The notes beneath the pieces were generated by a model that searched no databases, was not told where the DNA came from, and saw nothing but the letters and a program-made list of their open reading frames with translations. The position numbers and the translations under genes are program-made. From assembly GCA_018466975.1 (NCBI GenBank), contig CM031558.1, forward strand, positions 682,001 to 746,000: DNA of 64,000 bases, given 5' to 3'. Positions 27,026 to 47,927 of the stretch are shown here, in pieces; the stretch's first letter is position 1; the number at the start of each line of letters is the position of its first letter. The stretch is from Sparassis latifolia (taxonomy: Eukaryota > Basidiomycota > Agaricomycetes > Polyporales > Sparassidaceae).

Positions 27026-27033
27026 ACCATGAC
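27026..27033. repeat. Candidate 8-bp target-site duplication, left copy
   Basis: ACCATGAC directly abuts the left terminal inverted repeat. The identical octamer lies at 47,920-47,927, directly outside the right inverted repeat. Eight bases is the duplication length reported for Zisupton-type elements. Confidence 0.7.
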
Positions 27034-27120
27034 AGCCCATTCAGTCATGTTTGTGAACTGGACTCCCATTTACCCTGACATTGTCATGAACTGGACAGCC
27101 AGCAGGACGTCGGCCCATCG
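27034..27120 (+). repeat. Left terminal inverted repeat of the KDZ element
   Basis: Matches the reverse complement of 47,832-47,919 with only a few differences. Shared blocks include TTCAGTCATGTT, CTCCCATTTACCCTGACATT, GTCATGAACTGGACAGCCAG and GGACGTCGGCCCAT. The inner end contains CGGCCCATCG, the same core that is repeated in the adjoining array. Confidence 0.9.
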
Positions 27121-27129
27121 GTCTGTGTA

Positions 27130-29070
27130 AGGAGCTGTCAGCGATCGGCTCATGGCGATGAAGGGAATGCTGGAGCGATGGGCCCACCGCCATAGGAGTA
27201 TTTCTGAGCGATCGGCCCACCACCATGATGCAACTATTATACAGGCATGGGCCCACCGCCGCGGTGATAGTTCTGAGCGATGGGCCCACCGCCATAGGTG
27301 TATTTTTGAGCCATCGGCCCACTGCCACGGGGCTATTATACAGCCATCGGCCCACCGCCATAGGTAGTGTTCTGAGCGATCGGCCCACCGCCACGGGGCT
27401 ATTACACAGCCATTGGCCCACCGCCATAGGTAGTGTTCTGAGCGATCGGCCCACCGCCACTAGGGCTATTACACAGCCGTTGGCCCACCGCCATAGGTAG
27501 TGTTCTGAGCGTGGGCCGACCGCCATAGGTAGTGTTCTAAGCGATCGGCCCACCGCCATAGGGATATTTCTGAGCGATCAGCCCACCACCACGGGGCTAT
27601 TGTACAGCCATCGGCCCACCGCCATTGGAGCTGTTCTGAGCCATCGGCCGACTGCCATAGGTAGTGTTCTGAGCGATCGGCCCATCGCCACGGTGCTATT
27701 ATACAGCCATCGGCCCACCGCCACCGTGGTAGTACTGAGCGATGGGCCGACCACCATAGGTAGTGTTCTGAGTGATCGGCCCACCGCCACTGGGGCTATT
27801 ATAGAGCCGTCGGCCCACCGCCATATGTAGTGTTCTGAGCGATCGGCCTACTGCCATAGGTATATGTCTGAGCGATCGGCCCACCGCCACGGGGCTATTA
27901 TACAGCCATCGGCCCACTGCCACCATGGTAGTACTGAGCGATGGGCCGACCACCATAGGTAGTGTTCTGAGTGATCGGCCCACCACCACTGGGGCTATTA
28001 TAGAGCCGTCGGCCCACCGCCATATGTAGTGTTCTGAGCGATCGGCCTACCGCCATAGGTATATTTCTGAGCGATCGGCCCACTGCCACGGTGCTATTAT
28101 ACAGCCATCGGCCCACCGCCATAGGTAGTGTTCTGAGCGGTGGGCCGACCGCCATAGGTAGTGTTCTGAGTGATGGGCCCACCACCATAGGTAGTGTTCT
28201 GAGCGATGGGCCCACCGCCATAGGTAGTGTTCTGAGTGATGGGCCCACCACCATAGGTAGTGTTCTGAGCGATGGGCCCACCGCCATAGGTAGTGTTCTG
28301 AGCGATGGGCCCACCGCCATAGGTAGTGTTCTGAGCGATTGGCCCACCACCACGGTGCTATTATACAGCCATCGGCCCACCGCCATAGGTAGTGTTCTGA
28401 GCGGTGGGCCGACCGCCATAGGCAGTGTTCTGAGCGATCGGCCTACCGCCATAGGTATATTTCTGAGCGATCGGCCCACTGCCACCATGCTATTATACAG
28501 CCATCGGCCCACCACCATTGGAGCTGTTCTGAGCCATCGGCCGACTGCCATAGGTAGTGTTCTGAGCGATTGGCCCACCACCATAGGTAGTGTTCTGAGC
28601 GATCGGCCGACCTCCATAGGTAGTGTTCTGAGCGATCGGCCACGGTGCTATTATACAGCCATCGGCCCACCGCCATAGGTAGTGTTCTGAGCGGTGGGCC
28701 GACCGCCATAGGCAGTGTTCTGAGCGATCGGCCTACCGCCATAGGTATATTTCTGAGCGATCGGCCCACTGCCACCGTGCTATTATACAGCCATCGGCCC
28801 ACCACCATAGGTAGTGTTCTGAGCGATGGGCCGACCTCCATAGGTAGCGTTCTGAGCGATGGGCCCACCGCCATAGGTATATTTCTGAGCGATCAGCCCA
28901 CCGCCACGGTGCTATTATACAGCCATCGGCACAACCCCATAGGTAGGGTTCTGAGCGATGGGCCGACCTCCATAGGTAGTGTTCTGAGCGATCGGCCCAC
29001 CACCACGGGGCTATTATACAGCCATCGGCCCACCGCCATAGGTATATTTCTGAGCCCATAAGCATGGGTC
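27130..29070. repeat. Left subterminal minisatellite array
   Basis: Roughly 55-60 units of 33-34 bp. Each has a core of the form GATCGGCCCACCGCCA with variants such as GATGGGCCCACC. Two spacer types alternate irregularly: one reads TAGGTAGTGTTCTGAGC, the other GGGGCTATTATACAGCC. Long open frames on both strands are by-products of a period near a multiple of three. Isolated diverged units continue to about 29,580. The array begins at the inner edge of the terminal inverted repeat. Confidence 0.92.
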
Positions 29071-29137
29071 GCCTGAAATATCTGACTAGCCTGGGCATAG
29101 CTGAGTTATTTGCCTTGCCCTAGGTTGTCAACTGGGC

Positions 29138-29476
29138 TCATATCGTGTCCGTGTCGTCTTGGTGAAGCATGGGTGGGTGAAGGAACATACCAGATGATTC
29201 GTCAGGGAGTAGCATAGGTGGATGTATGAAACATGGAGATTGGTCGGGGGGAAGCATGGGCGGATGTATGAAACGTGGAGATTGGTCAGGGGGAAGCATG
29301 GGCGGATGCCACACCTGGTTGCCCGAGCCAAGAAGTAGACCATACGAAGTGAACGGATTGTACCCGAAGTCAACCGAAGAGCACGAAGTAGACGAGGATG
29401 CGGACGTGTGCAAATCAGCGTACGAGCCGAAGGACACCACAGAAGAAGGGGGCTCTGACGCCGAGTCATTGCTCAT
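29138..29476 (-). CDS. Small repeat-containing protein of the KDZ element, unknown function
   Basis: A 112-residue frame starting MSNDSASEPPSS. The first half is Ser-rich. The second half has four near-repeats of HPPMLPPDQSPRFI, the DNA of which includes two adjacent 42-bp units at about 29,222-29,300. No homologous family was recognised. It sits between the left array and the other cargo genes. It may be a genuine small gene or another repeat by-product; repeat-unit length divisible by three keeps it open either way. Confidence 0.4.
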   Translation of the reverse strand: MSNDSASEPPSSVVSFGSYADLHTSASSSTSCSSVDFGYNPFTSYGLLLGSGNQVWHPPMLPPDQSPRFIHPPMLPPDQSPCFIHPPMLLPDESSGMFLHPPMLHQDDTDTI

Positions 29477-29700
29477 GCGGCACCTCTTGCTCAGACCTAT
29501 CGGCCCACCGCCATAGGTGTAGTTCTCAGCGATCAGTCAACCGCCATGGGCATATTTTTCAGTGATTGATCCACCGCCTAACAGGGCAATGATGGAGCTA
29601 CCGCCGGCCAATAATTTCCACGTAATCCACCCATCATTCCCTCCAATTCTGGTTAGCTCACTATCAGCTCTCCTTGCAGTATCACACTCTCTCCCACTGT

Positions 29701-30023
29701 GGGAAGGGTTGGCGAACTGTGGCGAATATCCTTCGCCATCTGAACATGGAGTTCAGAATGACTTCGCCAAACTCTCCCAATTGGCATCGGCGTTTCGAGA
29801 CATGCATCAGATACAATTTGGGATGTGCCCTTCTGGGTAGAGTATGTGGAGACGAATGGCGGTCCTTTCCACCGTGAGTAGGGTTGGCGAACTGTGGTGG
29901 ATATCACTCGCCATCTGAACATGCAGTCCAGAATGACTTCGCCAAACTCTCCCATGTGGCATTGGCTTTCGAGCCATGCATCAGATACCATTGGGGATGT
30001 GCCCTCCTGAGGAGAGTATGTGG
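29701..30023. repeat. Direct duplication of about 150 bp inside the KDZ element
   Basis: The block beginning GGGTTGGCGAACTGTGG at about 29,706 recurs at about 29,881, with shared later words CGCCATCTGAACATG, ATGACTTCGCCAAACTCTCC and GCATCAGATAC. The two copies are roughly 178 bp apart and about 85-90 percent alike by eye. It contains no gene. Confidence 0.75.
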
Positions 30024-30129
30024 CTACTATGTTTCGCCTTACCACACCAGGTACATTGCCCAGGTTCAAAGACATGACAACCTTATATTCGACACACTAC
30101 AGCACGAACGGACGCCTGGCATTGGGCGA

Positions 30130-30850
30130 TTACATTTCTAACTCACGCAGCTGCCGCGTCGCCTCCTGCAGCTCTTCCAGCACCACATCCAGGTTCTGAT
30201 CTGTCCTCTTGTGCAACCAACTAGTGAGGTTCGCGACGCGAACATGCAGCTGTTCAAGCTGCACCAGTGTAGACTCGGAGATGGTGTACACCTTCTCCTA
30301 CATTCTCGAGGTTCAGCAAGACTGTAAGGTGCTGGAACGTACCACTCACCCAGGGATCACCAAGTTTGTACCACCAGGCCTCCATAGGGCTCCCCGCCGG
30401 CCCAACCTGATGATCCCATTTCCACCAGTAGTCGGGTGAATCCTCGAGTAGGTTCTTAGGACGAGGAACGAGGGTGGTGGGGCGTGGAATCGCCTTGACG
30501 TCAATGCTGATGGGGCGCAGAACTTCGCGATTGAAAGTGCAGACGGTGAGGACACTGGCGATAACTCCGCCATGGTCAATATGGTCAGCATGACCCGCCA
30601 ACGCGAGGTCGCCACAGATACCCCTGACGGCGAACTGCACAGGACTCAGCAGGGTCAGGCGATATCAGCAAGAAAGGCGTACCATCTCCCGGCGCAAGCC
30701 TTCCTCCCAACGGACCTTGGTGAAGTGATCTGGGTCAGGCTCCAGTGCCAGAACAGCTTCTTGGATCCTCCAAGTGTAGACTTCCAACTGCAACCTCCCT
30801 CTGGAGAACAGGCAGGGGCGCGCATCTGATGTTGAAGACTGGGCAGACAT
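30130..30850 (-). CDS. 206-aa protein of the KDZ element with C-terminal coiled coil, unknown function
   Basis: Three exons on the minus strand, 30850-30683, 30634-30350 and 30297-30130, join in phase to 206 residues. The start is MSAQSSTSDARPCLFS. The middle has KVRWEEGLRREM, FAVRGICGDLAL, FNREVLRPISIDVKAIPRP and PDYWWKWDH, which look like a folded, Trp-rich domain. The C-terminal 55 residues (SESTLVQLEQLHVRVANLTS and on) form a predicted coiled coil. Splice sites are clean and there is no break, in contrast to the transposase just upstream. It lies about 210 bp past the transposase stop on the same strand. Its function is unknown; a helper role in transposition is only a guess from position. 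Confidence 0.65.
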
Positions 30851-31063
30851 GACGGTGAGTGGATGAGCCGAGGTTGATATCTGATCGACCTTATCTGATG
30901 TCTGATGTCATGCGATTGGAGAGCACATGCCGAGATGAAGCCCTCAGGCGAGGATGGAGGTCACTTCGCCAAATGTGATATTGGTGAGTAGGAATTACAC
31001 ACATGACGATCACTACATCGATATAGCAAACATGAATATGCGTACACCCCAGTGAACCCTGAC

Positions 31064-34000
31064 TCAAAGCACATTTTCATCGCCCGCCCTTTCGTCCTCA
31101 ATGTCCAGGGCGAGGATGTGGCTGAACGCGTCAGTGGCGTGGCTGGCGAAGGTCCGCCACATACTCACTTGCCTGGCGGCATAGCAAACATGACCCCGCC
31201 AGGAAGGATCCGTCATCTCGAGCCAGTGAGCCCATCGTTCCGCATTCCGCTTGAAGGTGGCTATGGTCCAGGCCATTTCCGAGTGGACCAAGACACGCTC
31301 CTCCCTCCATCTCTCATATCGAGCTCTGGCACGCAGCCAATTCACTCTATAGACTGGAGGGTAAATTAGCAGGAGGCCTAGAGATCGATCGGACAATTAC
31401 GAACACTCGTCCATCCATTCTGATGAACCTCGATCTCCAGCGACATCCATGGTCCAGAACCAAGCCAGGTTGACGTTCCTGAGCCCGGAGGTGCTAGCCT
31501 CGATGACGGCAGTCTTCACGTGCAGGTCCTTCTTATCCAAAGGGCGATAGAGGGCCAAGTCTTCATCGGTGGCGCCCAAGCGCATAATGGCGCGTCGGTT
31601 GGCGGAATAGAGCCTGGTGCAGGCCAAGATGGTCTGATCGGCAGCATGAACCTCTGCCTGTGCACGGGTCATGGTTCCGACGCTGTTGGCAGGACGAACC
31701 CTCTTGTAGTAGAGGTAAGACTTCAGTCCAAGCGCCATGCGAAGCTCGTGGAGGATGTCATTCATCAGGCCTTTGCGCAACTCCAACTCTTGGGCCACCA
31801 GGGTCTGGAGCCCGTTGGCGACGGCAGCCATGAATCCGATCTGCGAAGGTAAATTCAAGGAAGCTCACTCGGGAGGAATCGCATCCTCACCATACTCAGC
31901 ATCCTCCAGGTGTATTTGAAAAGAATTCTCATCCAAGGAATCCCAGAGCGCACCATCTTCACGATCTTCCATGGTGGGAACGTCCTCCAACCTTCCCATG
32001 AACTTCTCAGAGCGACATTGGAATGTGAGAATGCTGACTTCAAGGCGCTGACGGCAGTCGAGAGTCTTGAGGTCCTCCGCCACGCTCGGATTTTGACCCG
32101 CCTTGCGGATATCATTCGCAAGCTTAAGCCTGAAGGCCGTCAGAGCTGTATTTTTGTAAAGACGAGGCAAACTCACTGTGCTTCTTGAATTTTGAGGCCA
32201 GTCGACAACCATCTGGCGGTGCCCTTCTCCAAGCCCTTGGCGGACTCCTCGCCCGCCAGTCTGAGTTGGGTGAGGTCTTTACCCGGGGCTTGCATTCACG
32301 TCAACTACATGCCACACGATGATGGAAGGATACTCACCCTTCCTGAGCTGGACATCGAAGGTGTCCATAATCTTCGGATTATTTTGGCGAGCCTCCATAG
32401 CGTCGTCGTACTCCTTCTGCCATGCCTCAAGGACCTCCTCATCTGTGGATGCAGATAAAGCTTCAAAGGACTCCTTGCTTCTTGGGAAGCCCAGGAGCAC
32501 GCGCTTCCACTTTGTCATCAAGGTTGGCACTGTAGGCAGCATAAGGCAGGTGGCAAATAGGGAAGGAGGAACCAGGCTCACCCATGCGAGTCGCCTTCTT
32601 CCAGTTGGAGTCATTCATGTGATCGTCAAGGACTTCTTGGCGGTGAGCTCGGTCATGCCCTGGTACTGCCTGAGACCTCATTTGTGGGCGCCCACAGGGT
32701 CTCGATGACCTCGCCATCGACCATACCAGCGCCAACTATAAAGTTGGGCGAGAACCGTTGGATGCAGCAATCTTGGTGTCTGTGCACATGAAACAAGCCG
32801 ATGCCTTGGTCTATCTTGAGCTCGAAGGGCATCCTCAGATAGGCGCTGTGGCGGAAATGTTTATGACATGGACGCCATACTGGCACATGATGTCGCATAT
32901 GACGAGGACGAGGGTGATACCGGTGAGGGTCAGGAGCGCATTGCTGAGAGAGTAATCCATATTCATTTGTCTGCAGAGGGTGCGTCGGTGAGAATGAATC
33001 ATGACAAGAGACATATGCGAACCTTTCTCCCTTCTGGAAATCGACGACAGTATGAGGGACGAAGAAACCATGTCTGGCGCAAGCAGTGGCCCCGATTCCT
33101 GTGGCGTCGAGGTTGGCGCGATCCACATTGGCCTGATTGACAGCGCAGTGCTCATGACAAGTGGAGCGCTGGTGGGCTTAGGAGTCAAGGGCGGAAGAAG
33201 AACGTGCAGCCAGACACGCACCTGATGGGACTCCATGGCCACCGCCAGATGAGCCTTGTAATCCTCTTGGCCGACCATGAATGCCTGGCCGTCACTGAGG
33301 GCGACGTCCTCCTCGGGGTGCTTCATCTTCATGTGCTCTGCACTGAAATTGCCATCCATGACAAAGCCGCGTTTGAACTTCCACTGCACTGGATCCGCTT
33401 GCCAATCAAAAGGCAGGTTGAGCCCAGGCTGGGGACAGGCGGGACAAAAGATGGCGAGGCCACCCTTCTCCACAGGACGGAGGGCATCGTGAGAAGCCGT
33501 GCCACTTGCGATATTTGAGTTGGCGCCATTGGCGGGACACCCGCATCAGCTCACGATAACGGTCCTGGCGAGGAACTGGCATGAACGGTTGGGCCATGGG
33601 AATGCATGTGAACACTTACAGGAACGGTGCCAGGGAAGGCATTGCTCGTGACCCGTTTGAGCTTGCTGTAGTAGTTCAATGCCGCCGTCTTGCACTCTTT
33701 GTTCTCCAGAAGGAAATCGTCGAGGACGGCGAATGTGAAGGCGGTATGGGGATCCTTGACGGTACCAGGGTAAAGTCCCATTTGAAGAAGCTGCATGTCA
33801 CACTCCACTGCCATCTCACACTGGCACCAGTCAACGCCGATATGGTGAACGCCAGAGATGTCGACAATGACTATGATCCGATTCCCATAACTGTCACGGC
33901 GAGGTGGCCGGGAGAGCACCGGTGGCACATCTTCCTCCCAAGTGGGATCGGGAGCATCGTCGGTTTGCCTTGCTTCACCATCAAGGGTGCCTGCCAGAGG

Positions 34001-34750
34001 TGCAAAGTTGAATGGGACCTCGCCATCATCTGAGACCTCGCCATCATGTGCATTTAGGTCTTCATTGGAGGCATTCCAGAAATCGGACCCCGGGGCCACC
34101 ACCGGCGCAGGGTTGTTATGTGCTGTGAAGGCGCCCAGAGGGCAGGGATCTCCGCCATGCCCCAAATGGATGCAGACGCCAACCCGATACAGTGATGCCG
34201 GCTCAAAATACTGACCCTGCCAATGCTCTATCCGATGGAAAGGAGCACGCTGATGGCCGTTACGACAGCAGTCAGTACAGGTGAGCGGTCTGCCCATACA
34301 GTCCAGGCATCGCCACCGTCCCTCGCTAACCTTGCATTCCGCACAGTTTCTGGGCTCAGGCGGGGCTTCCATCTCAACAATGGCATGAAGATAGTCATCA
34401 CGGTGGGGTATCCAGTCCCTCATGAAGTCATTCTGGGTCTATCGCGCATGGTCAGACCGTCAGATATTCATGGCGGGAGTGCCCACCTTTGTCTTCCGAG
34501 CCGCCGGATCCAGCTGAATCGGCACACCTATGTTGCCCAGGACGTCGCCATCATCCAAGTTAAACAAGGAGCCTGAAGCTGGAGCCTTCGATGGACTTTT
34601 GGAAGGCGATGGCACGTTTGAACCCGTGGGCATGGGCAAAGGTACGTCCACATAGCGTACTCCCCTAGTGGTCTGCTTAGCTACCTTGGTCACAAACTCA
34701 ACCTCGTCATCCAGGTCTACAACGAGCCTGCTTTTGTTGCGTCTGCTCAT
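31064..34750 (-). pseudogene. KDZ transposase with CxC cysteine cluster (frameshifted)
   Basis: Ten exons by my splicing: 34750-34487, 34432-33620, 33564-33222, 33168-33023, 32970-32582, 32529-32338, 32288-32177, 32129-31869, 31840-31401 and 31346-31064. Motifs in order: NDFMRDWIPHRDDYL, a cysteine cluster (CAECKVSEGRWRCLDC then CTDCC and two His), VHHIGVDWCQC, RELMRVSRQWRQLKYRK, FCPACPQPGLNLPFDW, MDGNFSAEHMKMKHP, NLDATGIGATACARHGFFVP, QMNMDYSLSNAL, GIGLFHVHRHQDCC, VGAGMVDGEVIETLWAP, AHRQEVLDDHMNDSNWKK, NWLRARARYERW. These are hallmarks of KDZ transposases. The frame shifts near 33,498, near 32,880 and near 32,690, and the junction of exons 8 and 9 does not keep phase. Splicing cannot explain the first three, so it is probably inactive unless they are assembly errors. 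Confidence 0.85.
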
Positions 34751-35299
34751 GGTTCAGGTCAGTGGGGAGTCGTATTGCAAACTCATCGATGAGCATTGTG
34801 TCCCTATCGCACAACACAACACGTGCAAATCACACACGGTCTTGCTGCCCACCAGACTACTCATCAAGGTGGTTAAGAATGGCTGCAATGCCTGGGCCTT
34901 ATCACCTCGTGGTCTCTTTAGGCACCAAATCAGCGTTATGCAGATAAGGATGCCATGTTGGCGAGAGGTCCGCCAATTGTATGTCGCTCTCAGTGCTAAC
35001 TTTGCCTTGACTCGGAGTAGCATAATGCTCAAAAGGGAAACGTGCACTTGCACCGCGCGCTCGCCAACGCTGCCGCCATCTGCCCCACTAGCACTCACAA
35101 CTTCTCAACCGAACACATTTCGCCACCATCTCCGCCAACTTCGAGGTCCGCCAACCATATGCTGCCATCAGTGATAACTACACCTTGAGCTGAACACTGT
35201 CGAGATGTGAAATGCGCACTCGTACCGCACGCTCGCCAACCTTCAGCTAGGATTCGGAAATTCGAGACTCCATACATTTCGCCATCACCTCCGCCAACT
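34751..35299. other. Spacer between TET/JBP gene and transposase
   Basis: Upstream region of the transposase. It holds two diverged copies of a block of about 150 bp: words such as CCGCGCGCTCGCCAAC near 35,060 and CCGCACGCTCGCCAACC near 35,225 sit in similar surroundings (a GATAACT/GCTAACT word followed by CTTGA). No gene is supported; the minus frame 34754-35098 shows no family resemblance. Confidence 0.45.
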
Positions 35300-36950
35300 T
35301 TATCCCGCCAATGAAGCTGCCATCGACAGTCTCCATCCCCTGCATAGTGTTCTCGTCTCCATCAGTCTTTGGCATGATGTCCCTCTAATAAGCGAGCCAG
35401 TTAGGACCTGTTCTGAGTTAGGAATGCAGACTCGGTGATGAACTGTGCACATGCCAATGTGTGAGGCGTAATATGAAGCTTGCATCCAGTGGGGTGCCGG
35501 AATGCCTAGCCTGTTCTGGACACCCTCTCGCATGAAGTATGCATAGACGAGCCTTTCGCCATCTGCTCGAGTGACGCCATGATGAATCGCCTTTCCACAG
35601 AAGGCTATGACAGTTCCAGGACTATAATCGATGGCGACACGCATGGCGGGGAACTTCAACCACGCGCAAGTGTAGTTGCCCAACGTCGCCAACAGGTCGT
35701 AGAAGGTGTATCTTGTCTTGCTATCTCGGTGGAAAGGAGTTTCCCGGTTGGCGATCACCTGGAGCGCATTGAATGGCGACGACCAGTTCAGCGCCATCTC
35801 TCGCAATTCTGGGTCTTGCTGGATCAAACCCAAGCACTGGCGTCCTGCGGCATATAGTGTTGGGTGAACGACGGCCAGGATGGCGCCCAGCAATGCGGAG
35901 GAGTCATGAATATCACGCAGCCAACTTCTTCCGCCCTCAAGCTTCAGGCTGGCGGAGGTCTCCAGCCTCCCAGACTCCATATGCTGCAAAGGCTGTCCAG
36001 ACGCAAGGCAAATGGCGTGGCGAGGAGACCCACCTCTCTTACTTGTTGGAACCAACCTGGCGAGAGACACAAGGAGCCCGCTGGGAATTGGGCACACTCC
36101 TCAGGAGGCAAGAAGTACAACGGGTTGTGTCGCCAACTGGCGGTGGTGCTGGAAGGCTTACTGGCTGCTATTGCTGGGTGTAGGGCCCTGGTCGCTTGGA
36201 GCATCTTTGTCTGACAAATTTGTCAGATCACAGCGCAAGGCTGGGCAAGCCACTCACCTGGCGGTCTGGTATCAACACTCTTGGAAGTATCCAAGCCAAG
36301 ATGCGTCCGCATGTCCACGAGGGTGGCGGGCTGGTCTATGCGTATTTCGCTCTCACCAAATGGAGGAGGCCACTTCCATTCCAGTTCTGCCTCGAGGACT
36401 TCATTCTGCCCCGTGGGCTGAATCGAAAGGCTGTCGCAATATCTATCAATGTCCCACTGCAGCCTTACTATTACAATGGCGTGATCAGTGTGATCAGACC
36501 TGCGGCAAGACTAATGACTACCAGGATTACGGATGGCCTTCACAAGAGCATCTGCAATGCCATTGCACTCCAATAGGAGGGCGGATGGCATGGACGGAGG
36601 CACTTCTATAGATGGCGCAGAATGGGCTGCATGAGTGGCCAGATGGAGCTTTCGGCGGAACATGAGCTCCAAGACTCCTGCTATCTGATCGGTCAGTGGC
36701 ATGGGTGACAGATTGCTCATCTTGATACTGTCTGCCAATCAATGGGACGATTACAGCATGCATCGGTTGAAGGAACGCACAGGTGTATGGCGGGCTCAGG
36801 CGGTTGGCTTGCAGATGCAGGGGAGAATGTAGGAGGGGCCAGAATGGCAAAGAACAGTATGCATTCATCTGCCTGCATATTGCTTGCAAGCACGTCCCTT
36901 GCACATCTCACATGTTCATCATGCCGCCGAGCCAGACATGATGCCGCCAT
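35300..36950 (-). CDS. TET/JBP-family 2-oxoglutarate/Fe(II) dioxygenase, possibly disrupted
   Basis: TET/JBP enzymes oxidise 5-methylcytosine or thymine in DNA; fungal members often ride in KDZ elements. The core, about 35,870-35,480, reads FNALQVIANRETPFHRD (iron His-x-Asp), TRYTFYDLLATLGNYTCAWL, YSPGTVIAFCGKAIHHGV (distal His) and GERLVYAYFMREGVQNRLG (2OG Arg), so all catalytic residues are present. Upstream exons: ARDVLASNMQADECILFFAI (from ATG at 36,950), AGVLELMFRRKLHLATH and LLLECNGIADALVKAI, then IDRYCDSLSIQPTGQNEVLE near 36,450, then PLYFLPPEECAQFPAGSLCL near 36,080. Frame changes near 36,722 and 35,945 that splicing does not readily explain suggest disruption. The exon chain 36,520-36,210 is uncertain. 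Confidence 0.8.
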
Positions 36951-37397
36951 GCCGGATCACGGGCCGGGTGGTCCGCCATGTCTGGGCCCTTCGTCACTGC
37001 CATCTAATTGGCCGAGCCTAACTCCGAGGAAGCCCTTTATCCCACAGATTGGCATGCAGATGATCGCCAGATTGCCTCCGCCCAGCATTCGTGAGATGAA
37101 GTTGGCGTGGTGTGCTCTGCCATAGAAGCGGCATTCAACATTGCCTTTCACCAGGCATGAATGCTAGTGCATACCTACTACCACCTCCCGCCACTGCGAA
37201 AAATACACATACAATGCTTCAGCAGTCACCACACACCATGGCGAGGAGGGTAATTGGTGTAAGCCCAAATGGGCCATCAGCACGTGCATGTTGAGTTGTG
37301 GGCGGCCGATGAGGAAATGGACAGAGCGCTGCCCGTTGAACTATCGACCCCCTTCACTGCCCCAACACAAAAATCTCATCCTCGACATCAAGAAAGC
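36951..37397. promoter_or_regulatory. Divergent promoter region, TET/JBP gene / HMG-box gene
   Basis: About 450 bp between the ATG of the dioxygenase (minus) and the ATG of the HMG-box-like gene (plus). Shared upstream DNA suggests joint expression of the two cargo genes. No specific binding site was recognised. Confidence 0.45.
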
Positions 37398-40300
37398 ATG
37401 CCAGCGAGATTTGTAATTTTGACGGAGCATCAGCCCATACTCTCTGAGAAGCTGCGGTCTTATGACACGGCAGATGCCAAGGGACGCAAGACTCTGGTTC
37501 AGAGCTTGTGCCAGAAGCTGAAGACACAGTTTGTCGACACGTCAAATTATGACGACATCATTGTGGAAACTGTGAGCAGTGTTTCATGTCTGTGAGGTCC
37601 CCACTAACTCTCACCGCAGAAAATCTGAGAGTGGCTCAATAACCACGCCCGCCATGCGCAGGAGAAAGCGACGAAAAAGCGTATGCATGTTTCTGGCAAG
37701 CCCAATGCCTTCAAGGTGTGGGATGCGCTGGAGAGGGACAAGGTGACTGAGGCCGCGCGAGCACTCGCTGCAGATAAGGGTTGCAATGTCTCCAAGGTGT
37801 GGAGAGTCGCACGGAGTGCCGAATGGGCAAAACTGTCCGAGGAGGAGCAGAAGGTGTATGAGGAAAAGGCGGAAAGTTGGTGCAATGGCACTCTGGATGA
37901 TAAGACGAAAATGAAGTGCGTACCTCCTGTCACGTAGCATAAGGCAAATCCTGACCTAAGACAGGCTGAGGGAGCAGCGAATGATGCAATATCTGAAGAA
38001 GTTTGCCAAGACTATGTGGGACACCATGGGCATTCGCATGGCATTCATGCTAGCATATCCGAAGGAAGCGGGGAGTCTGAAGGTAGAGATGTGAGCGTAG
38101 ACCGTCTGACTGTCGCCATCTGCTAACCCCCGAGTGAAGGGTGGAGGTCAACCACGCCATCACCAATGGAACTCCATTCGGGGCCTATCCTGGGTGGCTG
38201 CGTGCTTACCAGCCTCTAGCAAAGGTGTTCTCTGAGTGGGCCAAAGGCGAATACGGTAAGAAGACCTCAGTTGCATTGTCGCTGGCACACTGACCTGATT
38301 CCTTAGGTGTGACTGAGACTACGGTGACGGTGAAGAAGACACCTGCCGATTGCATGCGGGCCATGGACAAGATTCAGTTGACAGCCAACGGTTTTCCTCT
38401 GCTCCCATCGGTGCCTGAAGGTATGGCGGAAGCGCCTCTCAAGGTGATGAAGGTACAAGTTCGAGACTTCATGAATCATCACTATGGTATGACACTCCCA
38501 CTCAGTGTTGAGAGATGCTGACCAGTTTACAGCATTGGCGAAGGGTGTTCAGAACTGCAAGTCGCCATGGATGAAGCTGAACAGCATAGACGACATCAAT
38601 GAGGTTATTCCAGCGGAGATGCTACCTGAGAACTTCCAGTGGATCGATCCCTCAAAGATGACAAGTGTTCCCGTTTGTGCCCTCCTTGACCACTGGCAGG
38701 CACGCCAAGAGGAACATGGACCTGAGCAGACCATGCGATTCACCCAGTACTTCGACAAGGATGGCGAAGCTGCTCCCGCCAAGTATGATCCTCTTCCACC
38801 ACTTGACGGATCAGCACAGGCATTAGAAGAAGGATCTGAACATGAGGTCCAAGAAGCACTCACACCCAAGAAGGCGGGGAAGGTGAAGAAGAAGGGTAAA
38901 CCTGTGCGCAAGGTCACGGGAAAGGCGGCATCGAAGGCGACAAAGGGCAAAGCGGCCCCTGGCAGAGCCAAAGGCGGTGGGCGTAAACGCAAGACGAAAG
39001 ATGCATACGACTCGGAAGATGATGCCAGAAGCAGCCAAGACTCTGATCGGAGTTCGCCAGATATACCCAGCATGGCTTCCGAAGAAGATACGGCCAGCGA
39101 TGAAGATTCAGGGGATGGCGAGAGCGTGATTGCGAATAAAGCGAAGGGCAAGGCAGTCGCCACCACCAATGGACGTAAGGCTAACAATGGCGGTGCACCT
39201 CAAGCGAGTGGTAGCGGCGGTGCCAAGACGAAGGCAAAGCGAGGTCTCCAAGACCTTCCTCTGGGCGAACTGCACAGATTTGACACAGAGGAGACCGATG
39301 AAGCATGGAGTGAACTGGAGCCCAGTACAAAGGAGCTCAGGCTTGAGCTTCAAGGCCGAGCCCCACGTCTCACTGGCGGGAGTACTGTGGGGAGTACTGT
39401 GCCCCACCTCATCAAAAGGAGAGACGTGTTTCTCGCCACCCTTTCCGTCGAACCGCGATACCAGGATATGCTGAAGCAAGTCAAGATTGCGACTGTGGTG
39501 AGCTCCTTTCGTGGGGATTCATATACACTATTGATCATCCGTCATATAGCCCCAGGTGTATCGTTTCGCCAGGTATGATCCGATTCCCTGGAGCGAATGG
39601 TCGTATGGCCAGCGCTACCTCCCGCCGTCATTTCATGCGGTGGACAACTTTGACATCGTCGAGAACTGGTTGGGCGACAAACCATGGCTGACAAAATATC
39701 GGTTCTTACATCCACAGGGCGTACAACAATCTGCACTCGTGATTGGTATGGCGCTGAGGGACCTCACACGATCTCAGTTCATTGAGGAGGGCGAACCGAC
39801 CAACCTTCCCGACTATGTGGTGAACTCGGCGATCTCATTTGACACAGTAGAGCAGCTGCTTCGCTGTTGCGAGATCATTACCTTGAACATGGTGGAAGGG
39901 AACGTCACCCATGCCATGGTGAAGCCAGTGAGCAAGCCTGCCATACGCGGTGCCCCACAAGGTGGCGATGGCCTTGGGGGCCAGGAGGAGCAGGAAGGTG
40001 ATGCCTCTGCAAGAACTCACGATGGCGCTGCTACTGCTGCCAAAGTTCACAAGGCTCACCAGCCTGCCCCCATGGCTGACAAACCAATCATTCCAAGTGG
40101 AGGAGACGAAGGGCCGAGCCAGGAGACCAGTGGTGGGGCCTCTGACGATGGCGAAGAGGACGATGCACACTTGTCCGTACCTAGCAGTGGTGCTGAACGA
40201 CCGCCACCGCCTCCGTTTATACCTAAGACGAGGAAGGCCGCAGCCACGGAAGACCGTCCATCAGGTCAAGCCAAAGCGCTCCAGGGAAGGTCGATCACCG

Positions 40301-40809
40301 ATGCCCTTCAGAGTAATATCCCCGGCAGGATCACTCGCAGTCAGCATCAAGCGATGGATGAGTCGCCCGCCAAGAATACCCGCAGTCAGCATCCACTAGG
40401 AGCTGTGAAAGATTTGAAGAAGCTTCCTGATCCAAAGCGGAAACGTCAACCAGCACGTCCCGAGCCCGATGGCGAAGACAGCTCTGGCGAAGACAATCCG
40501 CCACCTCGGAAGCGTGGACGTGGTACTCGGGACGAGTTGGTAGTGGCCTCGCCGAGGAAGAAGAATGCGAGGCCGAGGACTCGGATGATGGTGACAAGCC
40601 TCCCGCAAAGCGAAGACGAGCTCTGCCTCAGACCCCGGAGGTCAAGGACAAGGAGAAACCAAGCTGAAGCCGGTCCGTCTGGGGAAAGCAGCCACCAAAG
40701 TGAAAGAGAGTGGCTGTTGGCGCAGGTCGCAAGACCCGCAGTGGCGGCACCAGACCTTGACAATATAACTCCAGTTCAAAGTAGACTCGTAGGCTTCCAC
40801 ATTGTTTAA
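37398..40809 (+). CDS. Large basic nuclear-type protein with HMG-box-like domain, KDZ element cargo
   Basis: Exons 37398-37571, about 37632-37915, 37965-38090, 38140-38255, 38307-38486, 38533-39497 and 39556-40809 give about 1032 residues. An HMG-box-like segment lies near residues 75-135: KPNAFKVWDALERD, then SKVWRVARSAEWAKLSEEEQ and KVYEEKAESW. A conserved-looking region follows (MGIRMAFMLAYPKE, NGTPFGAYPGWLRA, VQVRDFMNHHY), then Lys-rich stretches (KAGKVKKKGKPVRKVTGKAA) and Ser/Asp tracts, then a second folded region (YDPIPWSEWSYGQRYLPPSF, NWLGDKPWLTKYRFLHPQG), and a basic Pro-rich tail. If exon 2 began at the stronger acceptor (37620) it would meet a TGA at 37,626. The acceptor at 37,632 avoids it. 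DNA binding and nuclear location are inferred. Confidence 0.7.
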
Positions 40810-40989
40810 TGTGACCCATAGATCTACATAGGTAAAGCCATGGAGATGGTGGCAATGGCGAGGGGAGTTGGCGAGAACTTCAGCAGGCATTCAGTTGACT
40901 TGGAGTGGCAGTGGCGAATCGAGTGCATGGAGATTCCATGCTAGGTTAAAAAGCATGTATATCAATACTCTAATGACTACACATTGTGG

Positions 40990-43900
40990 CTATCTGGGCG
41001 AAAGGCGGTGAAGACCATGGCGGAGTCGACCTTCTCTCGAATGCGCCCAGAGACTTCGCCACCAGCGAGGTTTCCTCTCTGCCGCCGCCACCTCCTTCCC
41101 CACCTTCTTCGCTTCATCCAAAGCGGACGTCGCCACCGCCATCGAATCCTCTTTGGCGAGCGCCAATTCCATCTCCAGCTTGCTCGCTTGAGCGATCGCC
41201 TCTGCCGCCGAAGACCTGAGCTCCTTCTCCATGCTGTCTGACCGCGCTGCCTGGAGCTCCATCGAATGACGGAGGTCGGCCAATTCGCCCTGCAGCTTGT
41301 CGACATCCGCTTGGCTCACCGTCTGGTTCGCGCCTTGCTCCAACCTGTTGACCTTCTCCTTGAGCTCTGGCAGGCAATGTCGCTTGGCGACGAGGTCCGC
41401 CACCGCCAACTTCACGCTCTCCTGAAGCTCGATGGTGACCGGCCTGCGAAACTCCTCCATGGCCAACTTGACCTCTTCGCGAATGCTCCGGGCATTTTCT
41501 TGAAATGCGGATGGCGGGTTGATTCGCTGGAGTGCCACTGTGATCTCTGCCTTGACGGTGTTGAGGTCCGCCATCCTCTCCTGGAATTGGACTTCCATCC
41601 CGTCCTTGTGCGCCAGGAACTCCTGTCGCAACTCGGCACAATTCGCGCAGTCATCGTTGGATGACTGCGAGGTTTCTTCGCCACTGGGGGTGTCGCCTTC
41701 GTTCACCGGAGCGGGACTTCCAGTAGACACTCGCTGGACGTCGCGCAAGTGGGGTGCTGTATCCCTGGTCAGCGCTGCATGGATTCGAAGCTGTGGCGGG
41801 CGCACTTACCCTTGCTGGTCGGAGGCACTGCTCTGAGGCAGTTCGCCTTCGCATCCCTTTTCGCCTCCACCTCCTTCTTCACTGCATTGCGGTCCAGTGG
41901 GGCGCCCCTCTTAGCTGGCCTTCGCCCTTCATCGAGATGTCCTGCCTTCGCCAATGTGGAGGACTTCGCTCCCTTCGATGCCTTGGATATCTCCAGGGAG
42001 GGCGTCACCTCCTGTGCCACCTCGGCAGCTCCTGCGCTCATCTCATGGGGCATCAGCAGCAAACGCCGCCGATCGTCGTGTGGCCGCTCCAAGGACGCGC
42101 GCTGTTTCATGGTTACATCGACTCCAGCTGCGACAAGATGTCCTGCTTACCTCATCCTCCGCCACCTCTGCCTGATACTCTGGCACATCCTCTGGTTCGT
42201 CGGCGACTGGTGTCAGCATGCGCTTGCTGCTGCTAGCTTGCGGCGGAGCAGCTGGCCCTGTTTGGAAGGTCATAGCCCGCACCGCCTCCATTGCCAGCCT
42301 GGCGGCTTCCTCCATGCCATCGCCTTCCGCCAGAGGCATCTTGGCTGCTGCCTTCAGAGCACTCGCCTTCGCCTTCCTGGTGATCACGGGCACCATTGGG
42401 CCCGAGCGACCTCCCATCGCCACCCTTGTCATCTGCCCGCCCTCCTTCGCAACAGACTTGGCAGGCGGGACCTCATCCGCCTCACGTACTGAGGTCCTGG
42501 TGACCTCGCCACCATCTTGCGCACCTGAGTTTTGGCTCCTCACCGGCTTTGGCTTGTGTCCTGATTTCTTACCTTCGCCAGGTTTGGCGACCGCACCAGA
42601 CTTGGCAGGCGCGCCAGACTTGGAGACCTCGCCAGAGTTGGCGACCTCGCCAGAGTTGGACAGAGCCACAGCTCCAGTGGCGGTGGCGGACTTGGTGGCG
42701 CGCTTGGACTTCGACGATTTCTCCACCGAGGCCTCGCCTTCAGCGTTGGCTTCATAGCGCGTGACGGTCGCCTTCTGCTTCGTCGCCTCGACCTCCTCGC
42801 CACCCTTGACCATGGAGCTGGATGCTGCAGCATTGCGCGTCTTGGTCTTCTTCAGCGACTTGCGCTTCGACGCTCCCATGACCATGGGTTCTGCACCGTC
42901 GGGCTCATCGGAGTCGACCTTGACGTCGTATGGAGGTGGCGACGTGGGCAGTGGCTTGCCCTCTACCACCAGCGCTGCGCACATCTCTTGGAACTCACGC
43001 TGTGCGGTGTGTGAGTTTCCTCGCAGGGGCACGCCGTCCGTGTTCCTCGGCGCGATGCTGCAACTGACGCCTCGTGCTGCACATTCGAGGCAGCGACCAA
43101 AGTTGGCGGTGTTGAGCTTGCATGGCCACTCTTTCTCCTGGCAGCCAACGCAAGGGACGAGCTGCAGGAACATTAGCACAGGTCAATGTCTCACAAGATC
43201 ATTACTCACCAAATCTGTTGCATGTGCCCACATGAAGTCAGACACGCGGGTGGACGTCTTTTTCCACATGTCCTTCTGCGACACTGTCACCTTTGCCTTC
43301 CCCTTTGCCGTCGCCTTCCCCTTCACCGTCGCCTTTGCCTTCCCCTTCGCCTTCCCCTTCGGTGCGACATGAGGTGTCGCCGTCATCCTCATTGTCTGTT
43401 TGACAGGTTTGGCAGGGGCGTTCGTCTTCGCAACACCGTCGTTACAGTCCCCTGCGGTCTTGGCGGGTAGATTGGAAGGCGGTGCCGGAGTCTCGTCTTC
43501 GCTTTCGATGAACTCCTTGCTCTTGTATTCCTTCGTCGCACGCTTCTTCTTTGGCGGCTTGACGGTCGGTACTTCCTCTTCATCGCTTGACTCCTTCGCC
43601 TTCCTCTTCCCGCTCTTCTTCGTGCTCACCTTCGAGCCCTCCACCTCGGTCTGCGCCATCCTCTTCTGCGCACGCTGCGCTCGGCCAGAGGTGGTCGGGG
43701 CCTCGCCTTTCTCCTTTGCGACCTCGATCGGCTTCATCCGCTTCGCCTTCGGAGCTGCCTCCTCATTCTCACTCTCCTCACTCGACTCTGTGATGACCGC
43801 CTTGCGCTTTCGGAGTGATGGGGCAGCTGGCGAGATCGATATTGGTCTGGCAGTTGGCGGAGGGGGCGACGCCGCATCGACCTCGATGGATTCGGGCTGG

Positions 43901-44764
43901 CCTGCACCCAGCACGTCTTCCGCCATCTCATCGTCATCATCTTTGTCGGCATCGTCGTCCTCGTCACTGTCGGCATCGTCGTTGTCCTCGCCCTCCTGCT
44001 CCTCTCCCTCTCCCTCTCCCTCTCCCTCTCCCTCTCCCCCATCCTCTTCCTCGCTCATCGCATGCGCCGCCTTCCCCTGCGCCTTCTCCTTGCTCTTGCC
44101 CTTTCCCTTGTCCTCCCCCACCTCCACGTGGACGATACGCTCACCCACCATGCCTGTCCCGACGTCGTTGTCAGCTCTTTCCTTGCCTTTCCCCTTGGTG
44201 ACGAGGTCCCCGGTAGCCAGGTCCTCCTCGCCACGTCCCTGGGTGTCGTCATCGGCTGGCACATTGCCCCAGCCCTCCGCTGGCATACTCTTCACCGGTG
44301 GCAGCTTGCAATATGGATCTGGTGCAGTCAGTGTGTCGCTTGACGCCTCACAACGCTTGTGACTCACCTTCAGTCCACCACTGCCTTCCCAGGTCCTCAC
44401 ACTCCCCATACTCGCGCACAGCCAGAGGGTACCTCTTGTATATCCTCTCGTCCTCGTTCGATATGTGGTCCAGCCGCGCCAGGGCCTTCTGCTGGTACGC
44501 CCGGGTGAATTCCAGCAACGCACTGATGACGATGCCAGGCATCCTCAACGACTTCAAGGGCTGCGGGAAACTCTTTTCAAGCCGACTCTGTGTGGCATAT
44601 TCGGTGAGGGTATGCCAGACCTGCGACCGATGACTTACCACTTCGAGGTAAATCCTCGCCTCCCAGTCCGAATAGCGAGGGTCGTCCTGGCGAGGCGCCG
44701 CTGCAACAATGGCCGTCAGTCGCGCGGCCTGCAGAACATAGTTGGGGTCGATATCCAGAGTCAT
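40990..44764 (-). CDS. 1191-aa protein with Zn2Cys6-spaced cysteine cluster and coiled coil, KDZ element cargo
   Basis: Five exons that splice in phase with no break: 44764-44368, 44318-43210, 43161-42151, 42101-41810 and 41756-40990. Residues 1-135 look helical (MTLDIDPNYVLQAARLTAIV, SHRSQVWHTLTEYATQSRLE). Residues 150-500 are acidic and Lys-rich, with an EGEGEGEGEGE run from a CTCCCT simple repeat. At about 505-535 the cysteines are spaced C-x2-C-x6-C-x9-C-x2-C-x6-C (CVGCQEKEWPC ... CLECAARGVSC), the spacing of fungal Zn(II)2Cys6 clusters. A low-complexity stretch repeats SGEVANSGEVSKSG. The C-terminal 230 residues form a long coiled coil (LKEKVNRLEQGANQTVSQAD). DNA binding and dimerisation are inferred. 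No known full-length homologue was recognised. Confidence 0.7.
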
Positions 44765-45133
44765 GGCGAGCTTGGCAGAAGAAAGCGTGAGGGTGTTTCA
44801 AAAGCAGAGGTTGCAGTACAGCGGAGGCGGAGCAGACGACGCTATGAGCTGGCAGACGCGATCTGCACCAAGTTCAACTTCACACGCCACGCGACCACGT
44901 GCTTTGCACGTGATCGCTGGACTTGCACGATTTCTCAAGTCTCTCAAGGTCAGTGTGACCTGCTGCAAGTTCTCATAGCTCCCAACAGTAAGTTCTATTG
45001 CTCTCCTTGTGGAATCTGACTCCTTCGTGATGTTATCTGACCTTTCTATGTCATATCAATCCCCTTTCTACAACTGATCTCCCGCGATCCAGGACTGATC
45101 GAAGACTTGTCTGCTCGCCACAATCTACCTGCC
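44765..45133. promoter_or_regulatory. Divergent promoter region, Zn-cluster gene / repeat-protein gene
   Basis: About 370 bp separate two divergent start codons inside the KDZ element. It contains CGACCACGTG at about 44,892, an E-box-like palindrome. Promoter function is inferred from position. Confidence 0.4.
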
Positions 45134-46532
45134 ATGGCCAGTGACGCGGAACCTCCTGACACGCTGGACATTACGATGGGCGAGTCGGATGAGGAGGATA
45201 GTATCGCTGAGCCCCGTCGTCCACTCATTTCGGATCTCCTTGACTCTCCTGGATCTGCCCAGATCTCCTTGCCTCTCCACTCTGCTTCTCAGACACCCCT
45301 CACGCCCCGCCACACTACCCCGTCCCTGGCAGCTCCATTTGCGCCATCCAACTCGCCACATGAGCATCTTCACCGCCACGCCTCGCCAAAGGTACAGGCA
45401 TCATCTGGATCTGTGGCGCCTGTGGAGGGAAGTCGCGCACTTATTCCTGACCCTCTGGCGCCAGCTTGGGATGAAAGTCGTGGCAGTTCGCCAATCCATA
45501 GGCGTGCACTCATCTCAGATTCCACCCCCACTGCGCCCAGTGGAATGTTCGACTTCGACACTCCTGGCATCTCGCCAATCCCTCGACGTGCCCTGTTGGA
45601 AGCTACTTCCCTTCCTCCACCAGCTCACACTTTCGACTTTCGCACTCCTGACACCTCCCAACTCCCTCGACGATCGCTCATCGCTGAGCCCCTTGACGCT
45701 ACACCACGTACATCCATCCACTTCGATAGTCAAGCAAGTACGCCGATGGCGAGGGGCATGCTGGTGGACGAGACACTTGATGCGGAACCAGTGCCGAAAC
45801 TGCTGGACTTTGACAATAGTCCTCCTGCCACGCCAGGACGACGGCGAGCTCTGGTGATAGACAGCCCTGGCGCGACGCCTGTGCATAGCCAGGTCCGGTG
45901 GCTAAATAGTCCCAGCACTTCGCCTCCAAAGAGGCAGCCTTTGTTGGACGATGTTTTAAGTCCACCGCCTCCGCCATCGGCGCCCTCTCACTCGCCAGCT
46001 CGCACTTTCGATGACAGCAATTTCCGCCACGATGCACCTGTCATTCACTATATGAAAGGCAGCATCGAGCCAGTCACTGTTACTTCCAGGATGCCAAGTC
46101 TGGCAGCACTTCCAGATGAGCTGCCGATCCATCGTCCCACCCATTGGGAACAGGTTCCAGGCTTATTCCCAGATACCACACAGCTGCTGCCAATGGCAGT
46201 CCCTGGAGAGACGAATGCCGCTTCTGGCTCACAAGTGGCCCGCCTCGGTAGATCGTTTGCGCAGATCGCAGCAGAGGCAGACAGTTCCAGTGAGTGCATC
46301 CCTGGCAACCTTCAGTCTGATGTTGACCTTATTCATAGTGGACGATGACGAAGGTGATAGCTTTGCGGTTAGTCGTCGTCGCGCCATGTTGCGGGAGCAC
46401 ATTGTATGTCTTCAGCGTGAGCTCAACCTCACTGAGGATATGCACATTGCGAACCTCAATGCCAGCTCGACCGTGTTCCAAATGGGGTACATTCTGAGGG
46501 ACATTCGTGGCGAGGCGTATCGCAGCAACTGA
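45134..46532 (+). CDS. 449-aa protein of degenerate 33-residue repeats, KDZ element cargo
   Basis: Two exons, 45134-46289 and 46339-46532. An acidic start (MASDAEPPDTLDITMGESDE) is followed by about eight degenerate repeats centred on an RR-x-L-I/L/V motif: RRPLISDLLDSP, SRALIPDPLAP, RRALISDSTPTAP, RRALLEATSLPPP, RRSLIAEPLDATP, ARGMLVDETLDAEP, RRALVIDSPGATP and RQPLLDDVLSPPP. Most are followed by a HxFDF/LLDFD-like word. The second exon encodes a predicted helix (MLREHIVCLQRELNLTEDMH). A longer start at 45,107 is possible. The regular short linear motifs suggest a multivalent binding scaffold, which is inference. No family recognised. Confidence 0.6.
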
Positions 46533-46639
46533 ACTAGTGTCTTTGAGCATTTTGGTGTTAGCAATATATGACCGCTATGTAACAGCTTGTATACCAGTAC
46601 AAAATGGATACATTCACTTCTGCATCACTAAGCTCTAAA

Positions 46640-47831
46640 GCCCATCGCTCCTCCAGTGTACTCTTCAGATGGGCGGACTGCGCTCGCCATCACCAAGGCA
46701 TGTTGTTGCCAGCAATTGGCCCATCGCCAAAGGACCTGAGTGAAAGCTTCACTGCATGGGAATATCGCTCCGCCAGCAAAGGGCCCACTGCCAAGGGTCA
46801 GAGGGTTGGCCATCGCCAAGCCGTGTTTCGCCACCAATTGGCCCTCCGCCATGAGTGCTGGTGAGTGATGGGCCCACCGGCAAAGGTCAGAGGATTGGCG
46901 ATCACCAGAGCACGTCATCACCACCAATGCGCCCGGAAACTGCAGGGCTGTATGTGACAATGGGCCCATTGGTGGCGATGACATATCCTGGTGATCGTCA
47001 ACCCACTGGCCTTTGGCGGTGGGCCGATTGCTGGCGATAACATGCTCTGGCGTTGGCCAACCCACTGGCTTTTGGCGGTGGGCCGATTGCTGGCGGAAAC
47101 ATGTCCTGGCGATGACCTATCCCATGGGTGCTTGCAGTAAGGCCCTCACTGAGGGTGCTTTGGCGATGGGCCGACTGCTGGCGATAACATGCTCTGGCAA
47201 TCGTCAACCCTCTAACCTTTGGCGGTGGGCCCATCCTTCAGGTTACACTCTGGGCGATCGGCCCACTGCTCATTCGTCATACTCTGGTGGTGGGCCGATT
47301 GCTCAGACAAACATGCTCTGGCCATGGCCAACACTCTGACCTTTGGCGGTGGGCCGATTGCTGGCGGAAACATGTCCTGGCGATGACCTATCCCATGGGT
47401 GCTTGCAGTAAGGCCCTCACTGAGGGTGCTTTGGCGATGGGCCGATTGCTGGCGATAACATGCTCTGGCAATCGTCAACCCTCTAACTTTTGGCAGTGGG
47501 CCCATCCTTCAGGTTACACTCTGGGCGATCGGCCCACTGCTCATTCGTCATACTTTGGCAGTGGGCCCATCCGTCATCTTACACTCGTGGCGATGGGCCC
47601 ACTGCTCATTGATCATACTTTGGCAGTGGGCCCATCGATGGCGATAACATGCTCTGGCATCAGCCCACCCTCTGACCTGTGGCGGTGGGCCCATTGCTTA
47701 ACGGTTACAACACTGTAATATGCCCTGCTAGTGGGCCGAGCACTGGGATAAGAACACTAGCGGTGGGCCCACTGCTAGTATCCCACACATGAAAGGTATG
47801 GGCCCACTGCTGGTAGAGGTCAACATGGTGA
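46640..47831. repeat. Right subterminal minisatellite array
   Basis: Irregular units of about 30-60 bp, each with a core such as GGCGGTGGGCCGATTGCTGG or GGCAGTGGGCCCATC. The spacer words CGATAACATGCTCTGG and CCAACCCACTGGC recur. The core is the reverse complement of the left-array core, so the two arrays point inward symmetrically. A block of about 215 bp at 47,072-47,290 is repeated almost unchanged at about 47,340-47,560. The array ends at the inner edge of the right terminal repeat. Confidence 0.9.
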
Positions 47832-47919
47832 CAATGGGCCGACGTCCGCTGGCTGTCCAGTTCATGACAATGTCAGGGTAAATGGGAGTTCAGTTCAGGT
47901 AACATGACTGAAAGGTGTG
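47832..47919 (-). repeat. Right terminal inverted repeat of the KDZ element
   Basis: Reverse complement of the left terminal repeat over about 87 bp, with small differences near the outer end (an extra base and a few substitutions) and one deletion near the inner end. Confidence 0.9.
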
Positions 47920-47927
47920 ACCATGAC
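47920..47927. repeat. Candidate 8-bp target-site duplication, right copy
   Basis: ACCATGAC, identical to 27,026-27,033. One base of uncertainty exists in where the right inverted repeat ends. Confidence 0.7.

Follow-up and report, generated by a model that had tools for sequence, protein, structure and literature searches.

The 64,000-nt stretch of Sparassis latifolia DNA analyzed here (the window; G000:C7:682,001-746,000 on contig CM031558.1, in a genome of 41.4 Mb and 22 contigs) contains 20.9 kb enclosed by inverted ends, with genes for a KDZ-type transposase and a TET/JBP dioxygenase between them. This raises the question of whether everything between the ends moves as a single unit, what kind of unit that is, and whether it could be, as an earlier sequence-only reading had it, a self-contained system for moving and for controlling its own DNA methylation. 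The transposon unit is complete, at 27,033–47,919 (20,887 bp), and is very probably one copy of a high-copy TET+ Kyakuja (KDZ) DNA transposon of the Sparassis genome.

Borders, Terminal Repeats, and Target Site

The sequence-only reading had suggested searching the assembly with both ends for other copies and for empty sites, and both were found. The left end has at least 41 near-full matches in the genome (best 40 of 143 candidates scored) and the right end matches at least 40 places (best 40 of 126 candidates scored); a scan of the fetched stretches gave 82 ends, 41 left and 41 right. Every one of the left ends begins with CAG, and every right tip, read inwards, with CAC, so that the termini have the form CA...TG. 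Because CAG opens all 41 left ends, the element is taken to start at 27,033 rather than at 27,034 as first proposed; the right border, at 47,919, was upheld. Features at and near the ends, with one site used for comparison below, are as follows.

27,026–27,032, no strand: left target site duplication ACCATGA, 7 bp; single copy in a paralogous empty site
27,033–27,118, plus strand: left terminal inverted repeat (TIR), tip CAGCCCATTCAGTCATG; end scan and TIR alignment
27,173–29,055, plus strand: left subterminal minisatellite, 33-bp unit, facing inwards; motif scan
40,340–40,346, no strand: GTCAGCA, the empty equivalent of another copy's site in a sister element; flank matches
46,961–47,636, minus strand: right subterminal minisatellites, facing inwards; motif scan
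47,834–47,919, minus strand: right TIR, tip inwards CACACCTTTCAGTCATG; end scan and TIR alignment
47,920–47,926, no strand: right target site duplication ACCATGA, 7 bp; flank comparison

The left tip is exact in 38 of the 41 left ends and the right tip in 37 of the 41 right ends. The inverted ends reported from the sequence are 86 bp long, with 79 of 87 alignment columns identical, and their local score is 86, where 500 random pairs of 200-bp pieces from the flanks reached 20 at most. One right terminal repeat elsewhere (L079, C8:507,246-507,616) is split by ~170 bp, perhaps a small element, the pieces overlapping by two bases.

An 8-bp target duplication had been proposed, and with it a link to Zisupton. 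The octamer ACCATGAC is indeed present on both sides of the element, and the transposase is of the KDZ family, but all 41 left ends begin with C, while a C follows the right 7-mer in only 3 of 13 pairs of ends with exact duplications, as chance would give. The constant C at the left therefore belongs to the element, as its own first base, and the duplication is 7 bp (ACCATGA), as in Kyakuja. The paralogous empty site likewise has T after the 7-mer, and a Zisupton-type element with 8-bp duplications is highly improbable. These counts come from 30 pairs made by hand on the basis of orientation and distance, 13 with exact 7-bp duplications, four with one mismatch, and 13 unmatched; two of the four one-mismatch pairs look like a single insertion seen twice through a duplicated segment.

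The empty-site check proposed earlier, in which an unoccupied site should carry a single copy of the target, gave a matching result. When the two flanks of the window insertion are joined, they match C7:832,512-832,621, with 83% identity across the junction, and this site reads TATTACCATGATCTCG, with one ACCATGA and then T. Since the likeness left of the 7-mer extends for only ~20 bp, the site is regarded as paralogous rather than orthologous. A second case involves a 6.5-kb copy (C10:2,838,182-2,844,661) inserted in a sister element, whose flanks match window positions 40,199–40,346 and 40,340–40,487 at 94.6% each, with an overlap of exactly 7 bp. Its flanking duplications are GTCAGCA and GTCAGCG, and the unoccupied site in the window is GTCAGCA. 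In a third, a copy at C8:728,597-748,494 (duplication TTCAGTC) sits in sequence that resembles the TET–KDZ spacer; the likeness is 89.6%, and there is a small gap close to the junction.

Comparison of 7-mers across loci gave three exact matches, which are read as rearrangements. Inverted copies at C10:495,586-515,388 and C10:538,596-560,016 (L055, L056, L065, L066) have the 7-mers TGCCATC and GTCACCC swapped. Recombination between the inverted copies would leave this pattern by producing an inversion; misassembly could also account for it. The flanks of a right end at C7:1,758,602 and a left end at C19:40,252 (L022, L067) have CAAGCGT in common, which suggests an exchange between copies or a misjoin.

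Inside the terminal repeats, the inward-facing minisatellite arrays noted earlier were recovered. A motif written after inspecting them, GGCC[CG]A[CT][CT][AG]CC, with which a scan describes rather than tests, occurs 47 times forward and never in reverse at the left end, twice forward and 14 times in reverse at the right end, and is absent from the 16.4-kb core and from 43 kb of flanking sequence. In eight copies compared, left ends have no reversed motif, and at each right end most of the motifs are reversed (4–18). By analogy with the subterminal repeats of plant CACTA elements, the natural reading would be that the arrays are binding sites for the transposase or for accessory proteins.

Copies and Unity of the Cargo

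The following lie between the arrays.

30,133–30,841, minus strand: perhaps further 3' exons of the KDZ gene, otherwise a short gene of its own (tentative); P0003 match
31,067–34,750, minus strand: gene for the KDZ transposase, with CxC2 and KDZ domains and a frame that appears broken here; domain and protein matches
35,277–36,878, minus strand: TET/JBP dioxygenase gene, Tet_JBP domain open, HRD motif and distal His kept; domain and protein matches
37,269–40,809, plus strand: gene C, modeled at ~1,067 aa, with a weak HMG-box hint and an uncertain start (that of P0121 is near 37,470); Sparassis relatives
40,990–44,770, minus strand: gene D, 1,174-aa model, Cys cluster; agrees with P0128
45,134–46,348, plus strand: open reading frame (ORF) E (tentative), Pro/Ser-rich, no family match; open frame only

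Six further full copies are co-linear with the window copy end to end, cargo included, as the alignment of cargo across copies suggested in the sequence-only reading now makes plain. Identity to the window copy is 96.3–98.5%, and between any two of the seven it is 95.7–98.5%, the left array being the part most variable in length. An eighth full copy, of 34.7 kb, contains inserted extra DNA. A chance composite of unrelated nested elements might be suspected, since members of the family do nest and this 34.7-kb copy carries inserted sequence, but with six other full copies in the same end-to-end order it is a scarcely credible explanation.

The same association is seen outside the full copies. 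A family end lies on the proper side, in the right orientation, and within 25–30 kb at all 29 gene C loci and all 31 gene D loci found (47 of 138 and 39 of 106 candidates scored, respectively, with matches clustered into loci by hand). There are 44 Tet_JBP matches in the genome, 32 of them above cut-off, and of these 29 are beside a family end and three are not. Together with the co-linear copies and the empty sites, these counts support the earlier proposal that the genes between the ends form one mobile unit. In S. crispa, SCP_0501990 (KDZ) is near SCP_0502010 (gene C) and SCP_0211800 (KDZ) near SCP_0211830 (gene C); these locus tags suggest that the same KDZ–C neighborhood may be present there.

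Shortened derivatives keeping both ends also occur, two (9.1 and 12.4 kb) with exact 7-bp duplications and two (6.5 and 8.1 kb) with one-mismatch duplications. The 8.1-kb derivative (L044) has the ends and arrays, and gave no match to nine KDZ, TET, C, and D proteins (E 1e-3). A swap of cargo had been suspected in L043 and L044, and was set aside: L044 has no protein match, and L043 appears to be a left end followed by other DNA.

Gene Content

Of the seven genes claimed originally, four are supported at the protein level (KDZ, TET, C, and D). A fifth, ORF E, is an open frame only, and one annotation of S. crispa (P0003) makes the segment at 30,133–30,841 part of the KDZ gene. The home-made splice predictor used here fused neighboring genes, and exons were retained where S. 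crispa proteins agreed; codon-position periodicity across copies gave no useful gene signal.

The KDZ-type transposase was confirmed, with matches to CxC2 (1.7e-26) and KDZ (1.4e-6) in window ORFs and to KDZ (1.3e-51) in the S. crispa relative P0001. Among the best 120 of 467 matches, the four best relatives are S. crispa proteins (83–91% to a rough model), followed by proteins of Lactarius, Ganoderma, and Suillus at ~38–40%. In the window copy the frame appears to be broken. It shares with two other copies a 2-bp gap that is absent from four of the seven, there is a second frame change within the KDZ domain relative to the S. crispa proteins, and the KDZ-domain open frame is 174 aa, as against stop-free frames of 384–387 aa for nine KDZ matches elsewhere; assembly error is the alternative. 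Genome-wide there are 164 KDZ-domain matches, many stronger than those of this transposon family, so that other KDZ families are present as well.

Four copies (C7_1738k, C5_4301k, C17_73k, and C11_3836k) have 49–95 single-base deletions each, vs. 6–9 in three others, and these mostly adjoin the same base. The excess is probably due to unpolished repeat sequence or assembly error, and for this reason copies in general were not judged dead from their frame breaks.

The TET/JBP gene seen earlier between the ends is also borne out (Tet_JBP, 2.1e-20). It lies upstream of the KDZ gene on the minus strand, and some S. crispa annotations (P0002) merge the two into one putative fusion protein. The TET domain of S. 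crispa P0004 aligns to CcTet (7vpn) at 2.7e-25, and by residue positions counted on this alignment the HRD motif, the distal His, and the equivalent of Asp337 are kept in both P0004 and the window ORF, with Thr in both at the position of CcTet Gly331. Given the residue roles described for CcTet in PMC11040006, this Thr might favor 5-methylcytosine (5mC) over N6-methyladenine (6mA). Six further Tet_JBP matches fall below cut-off (28.8–32.5 bits), each a 204-aa open frame away from family ends (C10:525,251; C10:4,950,538; C14:688,115; C9:283,737; C11:2,344,673; C8:489,342); these are perhaps a second TET-carrying repeat family.

Gene C, divergent from the TET gene, and gene D have seven matches each, all in Sparassis (only the best word-sharing candidates were scored, and distant relatives may escape); the relatives found for gene C are in Sparassis only and those for gene D in S. 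crispa only. P0121, a gene C protein, has an HMG_box_2 match of 0.00056, under the curated cut-off (21 vs. 22.4 bits). An AlphaFold model of gene C has a mean predicted local distance difference test score (pLDDT) of 30.1 and is unfit for a fold search. The gene D model matches P0128 (1,175 aa) at 94% over 98%; its Cys cluster has a weak Zn2-Cys6 likeness (0.42), and one source names P0128 after that domain. The 435 codons of ORF E are open in four of eight copies. An NCBIfam search returned nothing for P0121, P0128, or ORF E.

CpG Decay and Selection Among Copies

Substitutions were compared over 29,100–46,900 in the seven copies, polarized by copy majority and with no other repeat family as a control. 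C-to-T changes at CpG account for 885 of 1,767 minor-allele cells, with a rate per site and copy of 0.054, vs. 0.005 at other C (11-fold), and CpG observed/expected is 0.77 in this interval and 1.03 and 1.02 in the flanks. Summed over the interval, the two strands contribute equally (443 C-to-T, 442 G-to-A), and the rate is even over genes and spacers (0.043–0.071). In the terminal repeats the rates are 0 and 0.048, with too few CpG to judge. By context, ACG is highest and TCG lowest, unlike the Pucciniomycotina TCG pattern described by Kojima (PMC12730594; its main text is meant here and below).

Matches to the methyltransferase family PF00145 occur at four loci of the host genome. One reading of the decay is that host CpG methylation covered the inserted copies and that 5mC was then deaminated, which the TET gene did not prevent; its occurrence in each of the seven full copies indicates that methylation probably still reaches inserted copies, so that escape would be partial at best. 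The TET enzyme may act briefly around transposition, or may leave oxidized cytosines in place, as discussed for Coprinopsis and Laccaria (PMC12730594). According to the same text no hypermutation was detected in Agaricomycotina. Decay here is restricted to CpG, and may be slow 5mC deamination rather than a burst. Self-contained control of its own DNA methylation, as first attributed to the element, is not borne out by these data: CpG decay is heavy and even, the transposase frame of this copy is apparently broken, and genes C and D are without assigned function, although the TET catalytic residues are kept.

When expected counts are scaled by mutation class, omega values for the seven copies are 0.92 for KDZ (897 of 1,090 codons), 1.33 for TET (410 of 450), 0.95 for gene C (897 of 981), and 0.90 for gene D (1,015 of 1,175). 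Values near 1 are what would be expected of inert transposon copies, and do not separate useful from useless cargo.

They bear on two other explanations. It is quite possible, if short of probable, that genes C and D are passengers with no part in movement or methylation. This would agree with their omega values, with the lack of relatives outside Sparassis among the best word-sharing candidates scored, and with the L044 derivative, which has no KDZ, TET, C, or D match and still keeps its ends and a one-mismatch 7-bp duplication. Proteins supplied by other copies can move such derivatives, however, and the full copies compared all retain the two genes, with no free-standing host version among the loci found; the neighboring S. 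crispa locus tags also suggest the same linkage. The other explanation, that the TET gene serves host gene regulation and not the transposon, is improbable. Of the 32 above-cut-off domains 29 are beside ends of this family, so that the host may depend on them, and the domain is stop-free in 27 of the 32; against this, there are many near-identical copies with an omega of 1.33 among the seven, and three other above-cut-off domains lie away from located ends.

Relation to Known Transposons

Iyer et al. in 2014 are said to have been the first to link KDZ transposons with TET/JBP genes. Among KDZ elements, placement with TET+ Kyakuja was made because the 7-bp duplication, CA...TG ends, KDZ transposase, and CcTet-like TET domain fit; it is by features matched to a description. 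TET+ Kyakuja of Agaricomycetes include Kyakuja-1_LB and Kyakuja-2_LB (Kojima 2025, PMC12730594), and Kyakuja is the sole TET+ type given there for Polyporales. Shared features are the KDZ transposase, a TET/JBP domain like the AG type (HxD, Asp337 equivalent), the duplication length, the termini, and an Agaricomycete host. The differences are that the element here has subterminal arrays and extra genes, unmentioned for Kyakuja in that main text, and Thr at the Gly331 position, where Gly or Ser is given.

Several points count against this reading. Two Laccaria families are reportedly without TIRs (stated in PMC12730594 for these two only, not for the whole Kyakuja group), whereas those here are 86 bp. 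Thirteen of the 30 end pairs have no matching duplication (through rearrangement or misassembly), and the paralogous empty site is just 83% alike, with a left-arm match of ~20 bp. The even CpG decay leaves no TET-protected zone visible along the element, and with omega near 1 among copies no gene shows its use.

Zisupton and Dileera elements also have KDZ-family transposases, some with TET/JBP, but their duplication is 8 bp (PMC12730594). CcTet of Coprinopsis cinerea (PDB 7vpn, 7w5p, 8jkk) has the same HRD motif, distal His, and Asp337 equivalent, and differs in the residue that is Thr here. The repeated motifs inside the ends recall plant CACTA elements such as soybean TgmR*, whose subterminal repeats are thought (PMC4219821) to bind proteins of the element in a manner sensitive to methylation. 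CACTA/EnSpm elements have a 3-bp duplication, CACTA ends, and an EnSpm-type transposase; here there are a 7-bp duplication, CAGCC/CACAC tips, a KDZ transposase, and a TET gene. Among the titles listed, none describes this transposon family in Sparassis, and the Kojima main text does not contain the word Sparassis. The class is known; new relative to that main text are the long TIRs, the inward arrays, two large genes whose relatives found are all in Sparassis, empty sites exact to the base, and the record of CpG decay.

Possible Mode of Action

The copies and empty sites record the insertion of a unit with CA...TG inverted ends, with duplication of 7 bp of target and its genes traveling together; shortened derivatives with the same ends likewise lie between 7-bp duplications. 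Beyond insertion, the mechanism is one that we infer. KDZ transposase from copies with intact frames would recognize the ends, with the subterminal motif arrays as probable extra binding sites. The TET enzyme would oxidize 5mC deposited by the host on the element, easing silencing for a time, and genes C and D would encode accessory DNA-binding or chromatin-type proteins of the element. A more elaborate multi-protein scheme, in which protein C or D binds the CpG-bearing arrays and brings TET to the ends, where methylation is oxidized and the transposase can act, is rather unlikely; if true, it would be an anti-silencing system, an enzymatic parallel to the methylation-sensitive binding that has been suggested at the ends of plant CACTA elements.

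For a large TET-carrying transposon there are now borders exact to the base, empty sites, and numerous copies, so that the idea that TET enzymes protect their own transposon becomes testable, with CpG decay as a measurable record. A single family accounts for nearly all of the above-cut-off TET domains of the genome, yet shows strong CpG decay.

Nested and Duplicated Copies

Members of the family are found nested in other members (L094, C10:4,330,448 and 4,331,048; L040, C10:4,315,111), one in a left array and two in a KDZ gene. The regions C10:2,829,356-2,853,598 and C11:3,027,344-3,051,688 appear to be a duplicate segment in inverted order, with the same nested insertion and neighboring ends. 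Two pairs of left ends in opposite orientation share a 14-bp flank (C8:1,504,721/1,968,757 and C8:1,439,306/2,367,486), a hint of duplicated segments there as well.

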